From Treponema sp. (lineage in GTDB: Bacteria > Spirochaetota > Spirochaetia > Treponematales > Breznakiellaceae): 64,000 nt of DNA. Shown here in pieces: positions 44,613 through 50,132 of the stretch; positions within the stretch are counted from its first letter, which is position 1, and every line of letters begins with the position of its first letter. The notes beneath the pieces were generated by a model. It was not told the origin of the DNA, made no database searches, and saw nothing but the letters and a program-made list of their open reading frames with translations. The position numbers were made by a program, and so were the translations under genes. The DNA is taken from positions 1 to 64,000 of the forward strand of contig WRLP01000003.1 of assembly GCA_009777535.1 (NCBI GenBank). The letters run 5' to 3'.

Positions 44613-44846
44613 AGTATTTTTCCGCCTGCCAAGGGCAAATAGCTTCCCTTCAATTAACCTTTTTTTGTTGCCGCCAGACACAGGTTTTATTACATTTACA
44701 TTAGAAAGTATGAATGCTTTTTTACGGCAGGCTTGGCCTTCCGCCTGGTCTGTCAATTAAAAATAACATGCCTCTGAATTTACTTTGCGTCTTTCATTCG
44801 CATCTGTAATAGTCATGTTTAATTTAATAATTTTATGGAGGATTTT
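44613..44846. other. spacer before the FGE lipoprotein gene
   Basis: About 230 noncoding bases. It contains imperfect inverted words (CTGCCAAGG near 44627 and GGCAGGCTTGG near 44726) and a GGAGG ribosome site at 44836-44840. No promoter was recognised with confidence. Confidence 0.4.
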
Positions 44847-47800
44847 ATGAAAAATTTAAAAAGATTACTAATTTTGGGGATTCCCGCTGTTTTGCTATCC
44901 TGTTTTAACCCCATGAACTTCGATCCGGACAGCTTAAGTTTACACATTACAGGAGATATTAACGTCAGCGATGCAGATTCTTCTGTTCTTGTCATTTCAA
45001 ACCGGTCAAAAACCGTGGATGTGAAAGAGGTTTCCATAACCCAGCCGGATTGGGTGGAAGATTCAAAAAACAAACTTCCGCACGAAACATCCTTTAGAAA
45101 CAGGCCAAGAAGCCTGGAAAAAAAGGCTGTATATCTTAATCCAAGTGAGCACAATTATCTGGTAGAAATACAATACGAAGATTTCTTAAATGCCAATAAT
45201 ATTAAATCGGGCAGTAAATCCATTAGTGTTCCACTGCCGCTACCAAAGAATTTGGTAGAGCTTACTCTTTTCCGTAACCTGGACGGAGACATAGATATTG
45301 ATATTGTTGAGATGGAAAACGGCGGAAACGGTTCCGGCGGCAACTACAATATTTCACTTGATGTGTTTGTAAACATTTCTGATTCGAAAGATACAGGCAC
45401 TCCGGCGCCTGACCCGCTGCCTGGAGAAGGCTCAATCCCCGCTGTCATTCTGCCGGAAAACAGGACGAAAATGGCAACCTTTGTTGTTGTAAACAGAACA
45501 AACAGCCAGGTTATCGACAGCGTTCATTTCTCCATGGCCGGCTCTCATTATACAATGGGAAGGGTTAATGTTAATGACAGGCAATCCATCGCCCTGGGAC
45601 AGGGAACCTGGGAAGGGAGTGTAAATTACTGGTCAGATAATAATCTGTTAACCGTCGGTCCCAAAAATTTCATTGTTGTTCCGTCGAATGATCCCCAATC
45701 GGTCAGGGAACATTATTTGTACTTTTATTTGAATAACCGCGGCGAATACACAATAACCCAGGAATGGCCGCCTGTTCCAAACGATGTTGACGAGGAAGAC
45801 CTGTTACCCCCTGACGCCGGAGCAGGCCGGGGCGCCATTAAAATCACCAATAACACCAGGGCGCTTATTTCTTCGGTAGTTATCTTAAATCTCCGCCACG
45901 ATCAATACGAACCTCTTATACTCACATATGAAGATCATTTTGCTCCCCCTGTGCCGATACAGTTTAACAAAACCGGCTATGTGGATGTGGTTGGGCTCCT
46001 CCCCTCGGGCGATTTTTTGGGCTTTCCCATTGACGCCCACGGGGACTACCTTATCCAGGTTCAACTGGATGCCATTGACGGCACAGGCGTTTTTGAGGCC
46101 AAGGCCTATATTAAGGACACGGTCGTGGAAATTGTCATTAACCCGGATGATATAAACATCAGCCGTGTAAAAACGGCTTCTGCGCCGCAAAACTTCACAG
46201 CAAAGCCCGGCAACAGCCAGGTATTGCTAAGCTGGACATCACCTGCGAGCGACGGTGGCAGCCCGATTACTGGGTACGAGGTTTCAAGCGACAACGGTCT
46301 TAGCTGGGTGGATGCGGGGGATAATACCGCTTACACCTTTACCGGCCTCACAAACGGCATTGTCTACACTTTCAAGGTGCAGGCTGTAAATGCCAGCGGC
46401 GCCGGCGAAGCGGCCATTACCAGGGCCATACCTCTGGATATACCGGCTGGGCATCATGCGATAATATTCTGGGGCAACAGAGGTTTACCCGAATATGATA
46501 TTGTTTTTGTTCCGAATAACGAAATAATAGGAAACCCCAGGGTATTATTTACCAGGGCCAATTACGGGATAGAAGGCTGGTACGAGAGTCCGAATGCGGA
46601 AGGTGCGAAGATTGACCTGGCAACAAGGCGGGCAACAGCCTCCATGGACCTTTACGCCAACTGGACGACGGCTAACGGTAATAACTCGTGGCTGGTGACC
46701 TTCCAGGGCAACGGCGGAACATTCCCCAGAAACGGCAATGTCAGCGTTCTTACGGCCCGTGTACTTCACAACAACCAGCAGATGTCCGAGCCTTATGTAA
46801 TAAGAGCAGGGCATATTCTTGCAGGCTGGTATGTCGGCAGCCCGGAAGGCGAGAGATGGGATTTTAGCCGCGAAGTAACCGGCAACATGACGCTTCATGC
46901 CCGCTGGATTGAATTTGCATTACCTGAAGGGCACTATGTTGTGATTTTCCACGGCGAAAAGGACGATCAGTTGCAGTTCCATGTGGTTTCCGTATCAAAG
47001 GACGGAGATCGCAAAATCTCAAGTCCGCCCGATGGCATATTTGACAGGGCCGGCTGGATGATAGACACCTGGCACAAAGGCTCAGTCAATGGTCCTGCAT
47101 GGAACTTTGAATCTGACACTGTAGAAGGGAATATGCATCTATTTGCGGAATGGAAGACAGCCGAAAGGGCTTCTGCACCACTAAATTTCGCGGCAACACC
47201 CGGTGACAGCCAGGTAGAGCTAAGCTGGACAACGCCTGCGAGCGATGGCGATAGCCCGATTACAAGGTATGAGGTTTCCGTCCAGAACGAAGCCTGGATA
47301 AATGTGGGTACGGAAATGACTTACATCTATGAAAACCTGAGTGACGGGAGCAAGCTGCTTAACGGGACATCTTATAACTTCCGTGTACGGGCTGTAACCG
47401 CTGCCGGTAACGGGGAGTGGGCTTCTTTGAATGCAACACCCTTTACAAAGCCCGGTTTGCCGGTAGGCCTTAGGGCGAACCCCGCTCTTGATAAGGTAAT
47501 ACTCAACTGGTCTGCGGCTGCAAGCAACGGCAGTCCGATTACCGAGTATCAGGTTTCCATGAATGGAGGCAGTAACTGGGTAGTAGTATCCGGTAGTACC
47601 TTCACCCATACCTTTGAAGGCCTGAGTAAGAATACACCCTATACCTTCCTGGTTAGGGCGAAGAACGTTGCCGGAACCGGCGAATGGGCAAGCGTAAATG
47701 CCAAAACCTTAGTGACGGATCTTGAGATGGTGGAAGTGCCCGGCGGCAGGTTTCAGATGGGATTGGAACTTGTGAGCGGCGGCGGTGATAATATACCCAA

Positions 47801-48545
47801 TGTGCATTGGGTAAATCTCAGCGGATTTAGAATGAGCAGATACCCGATAACGCAGCAGCAGTATATGGATGTGATGGGGCATAACCCCAGTTATTTTAGC
47901 GGTCTTAGAAATCCTGTAGAGGGAGTGAGCTGGTTTGATGTGATAGTATTCGCAAACAGGTTGAGCATTATGGAGGGTTTAAGCCCTGCGTACAGTATAA
48001 ACAACAGCACAAACCCCGATAACTGGGGGGCAGCGCTTACTTCAGAGACTGATCCAAGACTGGCAGCATGGGATGCTGTGAAAATTGTTGCAGGTTCCAA
48101 TGGATATAGATTGCCGACTGAAGCGCAGTGGGAGTATGCGGCTAAAGGCGGGAACCCGCTAGCCCCCGGATGGCTTGGCTATACGTATCCTGGGAGCAAT
48201 AATGCCGATGAGATTGGATGGCACTTTTATAACTCTTCTGATTCAGGTAGGCCTATTGATCAGAAGACACATCAGGTAGGGCAAAAGAAGGGAAATTTCC
48301 TTGGCTTGTATGATATGGGCGGCAACGTATGGGAATGGACCTGGGATCGGTGGAGTGATTATACCACAGATGAGGAGACCGACCCTATAGGCCCCTCTTC
48401 AGGGGTTTATGACCGTGTGACTCGCGGCGGTGCCTATCTCGCCGCAACTACATGGCTGCGTTCCGTGGCACGGTACCGCAACTACCTGCCGTGGAACCGC
48501 GCCAACGTCGGCTTCCGGCTCGTATTGCCATGGTATAACGAGTAG
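44847..48545 (+). CDS. large FN3/InlB-like/FGE lipoprotein, putative DGR target
   Basis: About 1232 residues from ATG 44847, 7 bases after GGAGG. Lipobox LLSC (Cys19) predicts a surface lipoprotein. Order: a long N-terminal region to about 440, an FN3 domain (442-531), three InlB-like beta repeats each ending in a 'LYANW/LHARW/LFAEW' pattern (535-772), two FN3 domains (774-955), and a C-terminal FGE-sulfatase domain (957-1232) beginning EMVEVPGGRFQMG with GYRLPTEAQWEYAAKGG and GLYDMGGNVWEW. The domain has the C-type-lectin fold used by DGR variable proteins such as TvpA. Its last 40 codons form a variable-region-like segment (separate entry). It lacks sulfatase-type catalytic need, so it is more likely an adhesin or binding protein. 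Confidence 0.85.
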   Translation: MKNLKRLLILGIPAVLLSCFNPMNFDPDSLSLHITGDINVSDADSSVLVISNRSKTVDVKEVSITQPDWVEDSKNKLPHETSFRNRPRSLEKKAVYLNPSEHNYLVEIQYEDFLNANNIKSGSKSISVPLPLPKNLVELTLFRNLDGDIDIDIVEMENGGNGSGGNYNISLDVFVNISDSKDTGTPAPDPLPGEGSIPAVILPENRTKMATFVVVNRTNSQVIDSVHFSMAGSHYTMGRVNVNDRQSIALGQGTWEGSVNYWSDNNLLTVGPKNFIVVPSNDPQSVREHYLYFYLNNRGEYTITQEWPPVPNDVDEEDLLPPDAGAGRGAIKITNNTRALISSVVILNLRHDQYEPLILTYEDHFAPPVPIQFNKTGYVDVVGLLPSGDFLGFPIDAHGDYLIQVQLDAIDGTGVFEAKAYIKDTVVEIVINPDDINISRVKTASAPQNFTAKPGNSQVLLSWTSPASDGGSPITGYEVSSDNGLSWVDAGDNTAYTFTGLTNGIVYTFKVQAVNASGAGEAAITRAIPLDIPAGHHAIIFWGNRGLPEYDIVFVPNNEIIGNPRVLFTRANYGIEGWYESPNAEGAKIDLATRRATASMDLYANWTTANGNNSWLVTFQGNGGTFPRNGNVSVLTARVLHNNQQMSEPYVIRAGHILAGWYVGSPEGERWDFSREVTGNMTLHARWIEFALPEGHYVVIFHGEKDDQLQFHVVSVSKDGDRKISSPPDGIFDRAGWMIDTWHKGSVNGPAWNFESDTVEGNMHLFAEWKTAERASAPLNFAATPGDSQVELSWTTPASDGDSPITRYEVSVQNEAWINVGTEMTYIYENLSDGSKLLNGTSYNFRVRAVTAAGNGEWASLNATPFTKPGLPVGLRANPALDKVILNWSAAASNGSPITEYQVSMNGGSNWVVVSGSTFTHTFEGLSKNTPYTFLVRAKNVAGTGEWASVNAKTLVTDLEMVEVPGGRFQMGLELVSGGGDNIPNVHWVNLSGFRMSRYPITQQQYMDVMGHNPSYFSGLRNPVEGVSWFDVIVFANRLSIMEGLSPAYSINNSTNPDNWGAALTSETDPRLAAWDAVKIVAGSNGYRLPTEAQWEYAAKGGNPLAPGWLGYTYPGSNNADEIGWHFYNSSDSGRPIDQKTHQVGQKKGNFLGLYDMGGNVWEWTWDRWSDYTTDEETDPIGPSSGVYDRVTRGGAYLAATTWLRSVARYRNYLPWNRANVGFRLVLPWYNE
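48423..48545 (+). other. putative DGR variable region (VR1)
   Basis: The last 41 codons of the gene read RGG..LRS..R.....P..R...VGFRLV, the scaffold of FGE-fold variable regions, with diverse residues at the positions that are Asn or other AAY-derived residues in ordinary FGE-type ends. Codons here are strongly C-ended (GCC, CTC, TAC, AAC, GTC) unlike the AT-richer codons just upstream, as expected if this stretch was copied from a template. No template or reverse transcriptase lies in the window. Confidence 0.55.
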
Positions 48546-48554
48546 AGAATAGAG

Positions 48555-48592
48555 AACCTGACTACTTGCTTTGCTAGTAGTTAGGTTTTTTC
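48555..48592 (+). terminator. hairpin with T-run, 10 bases after VR1 gene
   Basis: AACCTGACTACT pairs with AGTAGTTAGGTT (one mismatch) around a 9-base loop and is followed by TTTTT. It is a terminator, and such hairpins also lie just after DGR variable regions, where they assist retrohoming. Confidence 0.75.
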
Positions 48593-48594
48593 AG

Positions 48595-48641
48595 CCCGCC
48601 TGAACACTTGCAAGTGGTCAGGCGGGTTTTTTTAGGTGTGC
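48595..48641. terminator. strong second hairpin, shared by converging genes
   Basis: CCCGCCTGA..TCAGGCGGG with an inner ACTTGCAAGT stem and TTTTTTT. It ends the FGE lipoprotein transcript and lies 14 bases from the hipA stop, so it may serve both strands. Confidence 0.85.
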
Positions 48642-48654
48642 CCGGCATGGGTGA

Positions 48655-49899
48655 TCAAAAAAGTATATTAAAGCGTTTTTTGATAAGTGCAATTATTTCG
48701 TCATGGATTGATGCCGGAGAAAGGCTTTCCCTAAGTTCTTCCGCAGCCGGAACAATGTTTTCGAATATATCTTTTAAGGTCCTCATCATGTTCGTGGCGT
48801 TTTGATTTAAATTTTCAAAAAGGGCTATAAAGTCTTTTGGTTTTAGGGAACTATATTTTCCCTTGCCATTAATCAGCATAGCCATTTCATGATCAACAAT
48901 ATTTTCCGGGTATACCTCTGTTGACAATAAGTCATAAAAAGGGGCAAGCATTATGCCATCATCACTATGAAGTATAGATAAATTTTTTGCATGGGCATCG
49001 GTATTGCCGATTAAATAATTAAAAATAATCCATTCCATAAAACGAATAATATCTGTAAAACGGTTTTCAGAAAATTCGTTAATAACTTCATAACAGTCTT
49101 TTAACTTTGCGCCGCCGCCTGCCTGATATTTCTTACCGGAAACAATTCCAAGGGCCTGGCAAAAATCTTCCTGATGAATGCGCCGGGCGATTCCGTTTTT
49201 CATATATCTGTCATACCTGGTAATCTCAAGATATTGCCGGCCTTCAGTTTCCATTAACGCAACATCAGGAACGTTCGACAGAATAATTTTTGCAAGTTTC
49301 ATGCAAAACAACTCATTTTCCAGCAGGCCGGGGAACCGCCGATTCGCAATTTTAATTATATGAGTTGTAGGATATTTATCGCTGGAACGATAATATTTCC
49401 CGTCGGATTTATATACCGCAAACTTTGACTGGGCTCCTGCCAGTGAAAGACGCGGAGGATTGTCTATACCGGTAAGCAGGGGATCTTGAGGCAGCTTATC
49501 AATGATTTGCGCCATTTGTGAAGAAGATATTTCGCGCAGGTCTTGGTCATCATTGTCCGGCATTGTTTCGTATAAGGCAACTGCGCCGGCACAATCACCG
49601 CCGAACCGGTCAAGAATGGAGAAGACCTTATCTTCGGAAACATGATCTTTCGTGAGTATTTCGAAGGCTTCACCCTCGGGAGTTAAATTTTCAAAGAAGG
49701 GAAAGGCATTAGCATGTGGGTAACTTTCGTCCCTGACCGGTAAACTAACAGATAAAGCTCTTGTCTCATTATCATATTGAAATGAGAGCTGCAATAAATC
49801 ATCTTCGGTTAGTATGCCGATCTTTTCCCCACAACCCGCACCGAGCCTGAAGGGCGAAGGTTCCCCTGTGCAAAGATAAACGTTCAGTTTTCTGCTCAC
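48655..49899 (-). CDS. hipA: HipA-like toxin kinase
   Basis: A 414-residue HipA-family kinase. Motifs: an N-terminal HipA domain (LSFQYDNETRALSVSLPVR and NAFPFFENLTPEGEAFEIL), the ATP-binding LSLAGAQSKFAVYK, and the catalytic region GNTDAHAKNLSILHSDDG followed by LAPFYDLLSTE with the metal-binding DFYD-like motif. In E. coli HipA phosphorylates glutamyl-tRNA synthetase and causes persistence. The gene overlaps hipB by 4 bases; the pair is an autoregulated toxin-antitoxin module. AT-rich composition suggests horizontal gain. Confidence 0.93.
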   Translation of the reverse strand: MSRKLNVYLCTGEPSPFRLGAGCGEKIGILTEDDLLQLSFQYDNETRALSVSLPVRDESYPHANAFPFFENLTPEGEAFEILTKDHVSEDKVFSILDRFGGDCAGAVALYETMPDNDDQDLREISSSQMAQIIDKLPQDPLLTGIDNPPRLSLAGAQSKFAVYKSDGKYYRSSDKYPTTHIIKIANRRFPGLLENELFCMKLAKIILSNVPDVALMETEGRQYLEITRYDRYMKNGIARRIHQEDFCQALGIVSGKKYQAGGGAKLKDCYEVINEFSENRFTDIIRFMEWIIFNYLIGNTDAHAKNLSILHSDDGIMLAPFYDLLSTEVYPENIVDHEMAMLINGKGKYSSLKPKDFIALFENLNQNATNMMRTLKDIFENIVPAAEELRESLSPASIHDEIIALIKKRFNILF

Positions 49900-50120
49900 T
49901 TGGCAGCCCCATCACAATCGGATACTTCAATTTTCATGCCAAGAATATTCGCTACCCGCAGAGCTTTATCAAGATGAACAGTAGGTTTACCGTTTTCCAG
50001 ATCGCCTATAAAACGCGCACCGGTATTGGAAACTGCCGCCAGTTGTATTTGAGTGGCTCCATGGCGTTTGCGGTATGTGCGGATCGCCTTTCCGAAGGAT
50101 TTAGAATCTTTCAAATTCAT
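49896..50120 (-). CDS. hipB: HipB-like antitoxin, HTH
   Basis: A 74-residue Cro/cI-type helix-turn-helix protein (FGKAIRTYRKRHGATQIQLAAVSNTGARFIGDLENGKPTVHLDKALRVANILGMKIEV). The pattern ARFIGDLENGK is typical of HipB. It should bind HipA and repress the operon. Its gene precedes hipA with a 4-base overlap. The 24-bp palindrome and two related sites lie 12-125 bases before its start (see operator entry). Confidence 0.93.
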   Translation of the reverse strand: MNLKDSKSFGKAIRTYRKRHGATQIQLAAVSNTGARFIGDLENGKPTVHLDKALRVANILGMKIEVSDCDGAAK

Positions 50121-50132
50121 GTTTTCTCCATA

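Follow-up and report, generated by a model that had tools for sequence, protein, structure and literature searches.

A probable orphan variable region at the C-terminus of a large TvpA-like lipoprotein in an uncultured Treponema sp.

Introduction

Does the 3' end of a large lipoprotein gene in Treponema sp. retain the imprint of a diversity-generating retroelement (DGR) and, if so, is that DGR still at work? The question is raised by the window analyzed here, the whole stretch of 64,000 nucleotides at the start of contig WRLP01000003.1. A sequence-only reading took the C-terminal 40 residues encoded by the gene for a possible variable region (VR), seemingly templated by an AAC-rich repeat and perhaps belonging to a surface adhesin whose reverse transcriptase (RT) lies elsewhere. 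We examined the codons of this tail, the DGRs of congeneric genomes, and the assembly to which the window belongs.

The lipoprotein gene and its C-terminal domain

The gene occupies positions 44835–48545 of the forward strand and encodes a protein of 1236 aa. The second Met, at 44847 (MKNLKRLLILGIPAVLLSC), leads into a putative lipobox signal peptide with an LLSC lipobox read by eye. The lipidation part of the earlier claim of a surface-lipidated protein agrees with this lipobox, while the exposure on the surface, together with a ligand-binding role of the C-terminal domain, is what we infer. The first fn3 domain was found at 46179–46409 (+) (Pfam PF00041, three stretches, E = 2e-37), with two more stretches at approximately residues 786–954, and a Flg_new (Listeria-Bacteroides repeat) domain at 46695–46901 (+) (PF09479, E = 4e-15). 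The C-terminal part, 47724–48524 (+), was assigned to the FGE-sulfatase/C-type-lectin family (PF03781, E = 4e-44). The top match of this domain among solved structures was TvpA (PDB 2y3c, E = 7e-39), with an alignment running through the tail. The formylglycine-generating enzymes such as SUMF1 (PF03781) share the fold family with this domain but matched it far more weakly (approximately 1e-17). Altogether, the C-terminus can be predicted, from the sequence, to be a TvpA-type C-type-lectin/FGE domain carrying a C-terminal variable stretch (DRVTRGGAYLAATTWLRSVARYRNYLPWNRANVGFRLVLPWYNE).

The tail of 40 codons, 48411–48530 (+), could be aligned with the template repeats (TRs) and VRs of congeneric DGRs (tail profile, E = 6e-17). 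The tail lies at the site given in the sequence-only reading and, as had been read from the letters, retains the scaffold residues RGG, LRS, R, P, and VGFRLV. The stop codon is located at 48543–48545. The tail is followed by the closing codons TGG TAT AAC GAG and the stop codon TAG (48531–48545, +), at the site where most RT-linked VRs bear RP-stop-GTTCTGC. Downstream of the stop codon, the folding of 48525–48640 (−47.8 kcal/mol, z = −5.3) predicted two strong hairpins (48551–48591, +, and 48594–48627, +), each with a U run behind it. We rejected the identity of the hairpin as a DGR homing hairpin and regard both structures as terminators because of the U runs. On the opposite strand, 48655–50121 (−) encodes a HipA-like kinase (PF07804 and PF13657) beside a small helix-turn-helix-like ORF. 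The two probably form a hipBA toxin-antitoxin pair, which converges on the lipoprotein gene.

Codon usage in the tail

The proposed switch to C-rich codons was confirmed, as 19 of the 40 codons in the tail end in C, whereas the proportion is 20% in the preceding stretch of 200 codons (p = 4.5e-4) and 28% in the remainder of the gene. Nevertheless, 19 or more C-ending codons were also counted in 20 of the 1156 other 40-codon segments of this gene, and the bare count is thus weakly to moderately unusual. More specific is the position of these codons. We defined TR-Asn columns as those occupied by AAC or AAT in the TRs of five congeneric DGRs (columns 1, 10, 11, 15, 22, 23, 24, 28, 30, 31, and 32). 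Of the 11 tail codons at these columns, 9 are C-ending and T-ending codons are absent, compared to 10 C-ending codons of 29 at the other columns (Fisher p = 0.009). Given the amino acids of the tail itself and the codon usage of the gene, 2.8 C-ending codons were expected at the TR-Asn columns against the 9 observed (P = 4e-6), and the result was similar when the one-codon register shift after R21 was gapped (P = 2e-5). No excess was detected at the 29 scaffold columns (P = 0.21). As the column test was picked after the tail had been seen and several versions were run, these P values should be taken as strong indications, not as formal error rates. The pattern is that anticipated for a VR, in which AAC/AAT codons of a template give rise to NNC/NNT codons at variable columns, and the claimed signature of an AAC-rich template at the Asn-type positions is borne out in this respect. 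Two variable columns are occupied by TGG, which cannot be derived from AAC.

The same test returned P values between 6e-6 and 0.01 for the RT-linked VRs of four genomes, and no C excess for six other FGE tails in the genome of the window (P = 0.11–0.88). Two true VRs in genes that are C-rich throughout, namely the VR of genome G154 (P = 0.21) and the remote VR of genome G187 (P = 0.09), fell short of significance, indicating that the test can miss real VRs. We additionally compared the third codon positions of the window tail with those of three VR-like tails in the same genome, on contigs C7, C4, and C43 (see below for the details). Only 2–3 of the 11 variable columns differed in contrast to 16–20 of the 29 scaffold columns (p = 0.02–0.04), and no such contrast was significant among the control tails. 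The pattern is the reverse of ordinary drift, which would randomize both classes of columns alike, and can be explained by AAC-rich repeats that served as templates, each with its own scaffold.

DGRs in congeneric genomes

Five congeneric genomes (G187, G176, G188, G164, and G154) possess an RT with the adjoining TR and VR. In each TR/VR pair, 18–22 differences at adenines and 0–3 at other sites were found in 120 bases. The targets share with the window gene the FGE family, the scaffold RGG..RS..R....P..R...GFRLV, and NNC codons at the TR-Asn columns. On the other hand, RT, TR, and VR lie side by side in these genomes and the VRs are mostly flanked, features that are all absent from the window gene. 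Remote tails were compared with the TR in two genomes. The one in G187 terminates a 1162-aa protein and showed 18 differences at adenines and 2 elsewhere, and the one in G188 showed 18 at adenines and 5 elsewhere. Thus, these DGRs work in trans on targets including large proteins. The earlier statement that Treponema DGRs act on the TvpA-type fold is supported by the match to 2y3c and by these genuine DGRs, which hit similar tails, remotely in two cases.

Four of the five RT-linked VRs are followed by a stop codon and GTTCTGC, whereas the paired TRs have GC[CT]CTGC; the fifth (L041, with GTTTGAC) reads TAGTTTGAC versus TAGCCTGAC. The difference between VR and TR flanks fits the distinction between IMH and IMH* known from T. 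denticola (PMC4891356). The window tail lacks this IMH-like 3' homing flank, RP-stop followed by GTTCTGC, and the usual 3' flank is likewise absent from the remote VR in G187 (L143).

In G187 (L036 and L143), the TR and its adjoining VR carry an in-frame stop codon (TAA, TGA) in the middle of the tail; the remote 1162-aa target bears TTA at this codon and its frame is open. Additional types of DGR in the genus (L039, L040, L043, and L044) have different TRs (FWSSSQNN...NNAWNQNF type; one with SANFCNVNNNGNSNNNNASSVGG), suggesting that several DGR lineages in the genus serve different target folds.

Search for an RT and a TR

The assembly comprises 2.77 Mb in 47 contigs and is 92.8% complete. 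No RT was detected in it with Pfam RVT_1 or with a profile built from seven congeneric DGR RTs; RVT_1 matched in 67 of 200 genomes of the family. The RT postulated elsewhere was therefore not recovered from the assembly, and the sequence-only reading had itself named the absence of an RT as a refutation. A DGR locus may still be missing as the assembly is incomplete and fragmented. Another member of the genus, G152, contains 63 matches to the FGE domain, many of the tails ending in GLRLVRP or GLRLARP, and its assembly likewise lacks a match to RVT_1.

The postulated template repeat was not recovered from the assembly either. The tail profile, which included the five TRs, found 12 places in the genome; the five strongest were read and no TR was among them, and the remaining places were FGE tails of the ordinary kind, apart from one match due to chance. 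An adenine-tolerant pattern of the tail, applied to this genome and 200 genomes of the family, retrieved the tail itself and A-rich tracts but no TR. As this fully tolerant pattern yielded poly-A noise, we adopted a stricter one with the scaffold codons fixed and up to three mismatches, which retrieved the tail alone from 394 genomes of the order. Searches with the tail as plain DNA in its own genome and the genus gave the tail itself and chance matches, viral contigs yielded nothing, and GTDB contigs yielded a single remote FGE relative and nothing else. The possibility that two isolated tails in the same genome (C4:25022 and C43:7371) are TRs was dismissed, as their adenine positions are already altered. 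Altogether, no TR pairing with the window tail was found across approximately 395 spirochaete genomes, and adenine-specific mutation of the tail is therefore putative. Neither part of a complete DGR, namely a DGR-type RT and a TR matching the VR except at adenines, was found in the assembly.

Phylogenetic position and the other tails in the genome

In the phylogeny of 94 FGE bodies, from which the tails were left out, the window domain fell into a clade of 25 sequences together with the RT-linked targets of G154, G188, G176, and G164 with supports of 100/99. VR-like tails were not significantly clustered in this tree (27 changes compared to a shuffled mean of 31). This lack of clustering may reflect either frequent gain and loss of such tails or a noisy label of VR-like.

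Four further VR-like tails were identified in the same genome. One of them (L146; G000:C7:23963-24082) belongs to an FGE gene with an open frame of 718 aa and retains an intact VR-type 3' flank (TGAGTTCTGCGG). Because this flank is kept in the VR form, we regard the C7 tail as the best candidate in this genome for recent rewriting by a DGR. Two others, L035 (G000:C4:25022-25141) and L149 (G000:C43:7371-7487), are isolated tails in ORFs of 65 and 71 aa with no FGE body; they have approximately 50 bases of upstream intergenic sequence in common (90%), and the similarity between them is 82% over 140 bases. The scaffold of the window tail (LPWNRANV, one codon out of register) is unlike that of every other VR seen in this study.

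Origin of the tail

The codon pattern described above, combined with the absence of the DGR machinery from the present assembly, leads us to propose an orphan, or fossil, VR as the most likely identity of the tail, the DGR having been lost or left unassembled. A TR rich in AAC codons would have been reverse transcribed with errors at adenines (mutagenic retrohoming), and the cDNA would have replaced the 3' end of the lipoprotein gene. The outcome would be a surface lipoprotein with a TvpA-like lectin domain in which exposed positions of the loops are encoded by NNC. With the DGR gone, the tail would now evolve like an ordinary gene end. Both the past homing event and the loss of the DGR, as opposed to a gap in the assembly, are presumed here. 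Thus, the earlier reading as a variable adhesin is most likely right in regard to the DGR-type origin of the tail, albeit the assembly lends no support to a live DGR.

An orphan state of this kind is already known in T. denticola, of which genomes contain several DGR targets each (PDB 2y3c; PMC4891356). The isolates lacking the RT and TR keep the target genes, which are taken as remnants of lost DGRs (PMC4891356). TvpA and the paralogous targets of T. denticola resemble the window protein in the FGE/C-type-lectin domain, the predicted lipoprotein signal, and the variable C-terminus ending in GFRL, and the presence of several targets in one genome is common to both. Unlike the TvpA system, the window protein is 1236 aa long with fn3 and Flg_new repeats, bears a tail scaffold of its own, and is accompanied by neither TR nor RT in the assembly.

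The tail could still be rewritten in trans if the RT and TR resided in a portion of the genome that the assembly does not cover. DGR repeats can break assemblies, this one is incomplete, the C7 tail retains an intact VR-type flank, and remote targets, including the flankless L143, are rewritten in congeneric genomes. We nevertheless consider ongoing rewriting unlikely, as sensitive profiles found no RT, TR, or remnant of them, and the window tail has no flank. Furthermore, the scaffold of the window tail differs from those of the other tails in the genome, so that a second, different TR would be required. An improbable explanation is that the tail is an ordinary FGE end never templated by a DGR, the C-rich codons being a matter of chance or a local effect of codon usage. 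The equally C-rich segments elsewhere in the gene, the failure to find a TR, and the variation of loops in ordinary FGE paralogs would agree with this explanation, but the confinement of the C excess to the TR-Asn columns, the absence of such excess from six ordinary tails in this genome, and the grouping of the domain with RT-linked targets argue against it.

The FGE domain and an already diversified tail may alternatively have been acquired from a DGR-bearing relative by gene transfer or domain grafting and never rewritten in the present lineage. The relatives of the lipoprotein N-terminus in other genera carry other C-terminal ends (e.g., G194, G185, and G196), suggesting that the C-terminal domain may be exchangeable. 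No donor with the scaffold of the window tail was found in the genus or the 394 genomes of the order, and we regard this acquisition as the most doubtful of the explanations considered here. It is only a highly speculative idea that a DGR in this species, at a locus outside the assembly, acts in trans on two or more tail scaffolds that are unlike each other, flankless targets among them. If this is true, the 1236-aa lipoprotein would be a live variable adhesin of unusual size, and the flank would be dispensable for homing.

Implications

Were the tail live, an uncultured spirochaete would possess a large variable surface lipoprotein. Under the orphan VR that we favor, the present results suggest that former targets of DGRs may be recognizable from codon choice alone, with both RT and TR absent, by an excess of C-ending codons exactly where the templates carry AAC. 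Recognition of this kind would enable us to count orphan targets in fragmentary genomes and to track the loss of DGRs.
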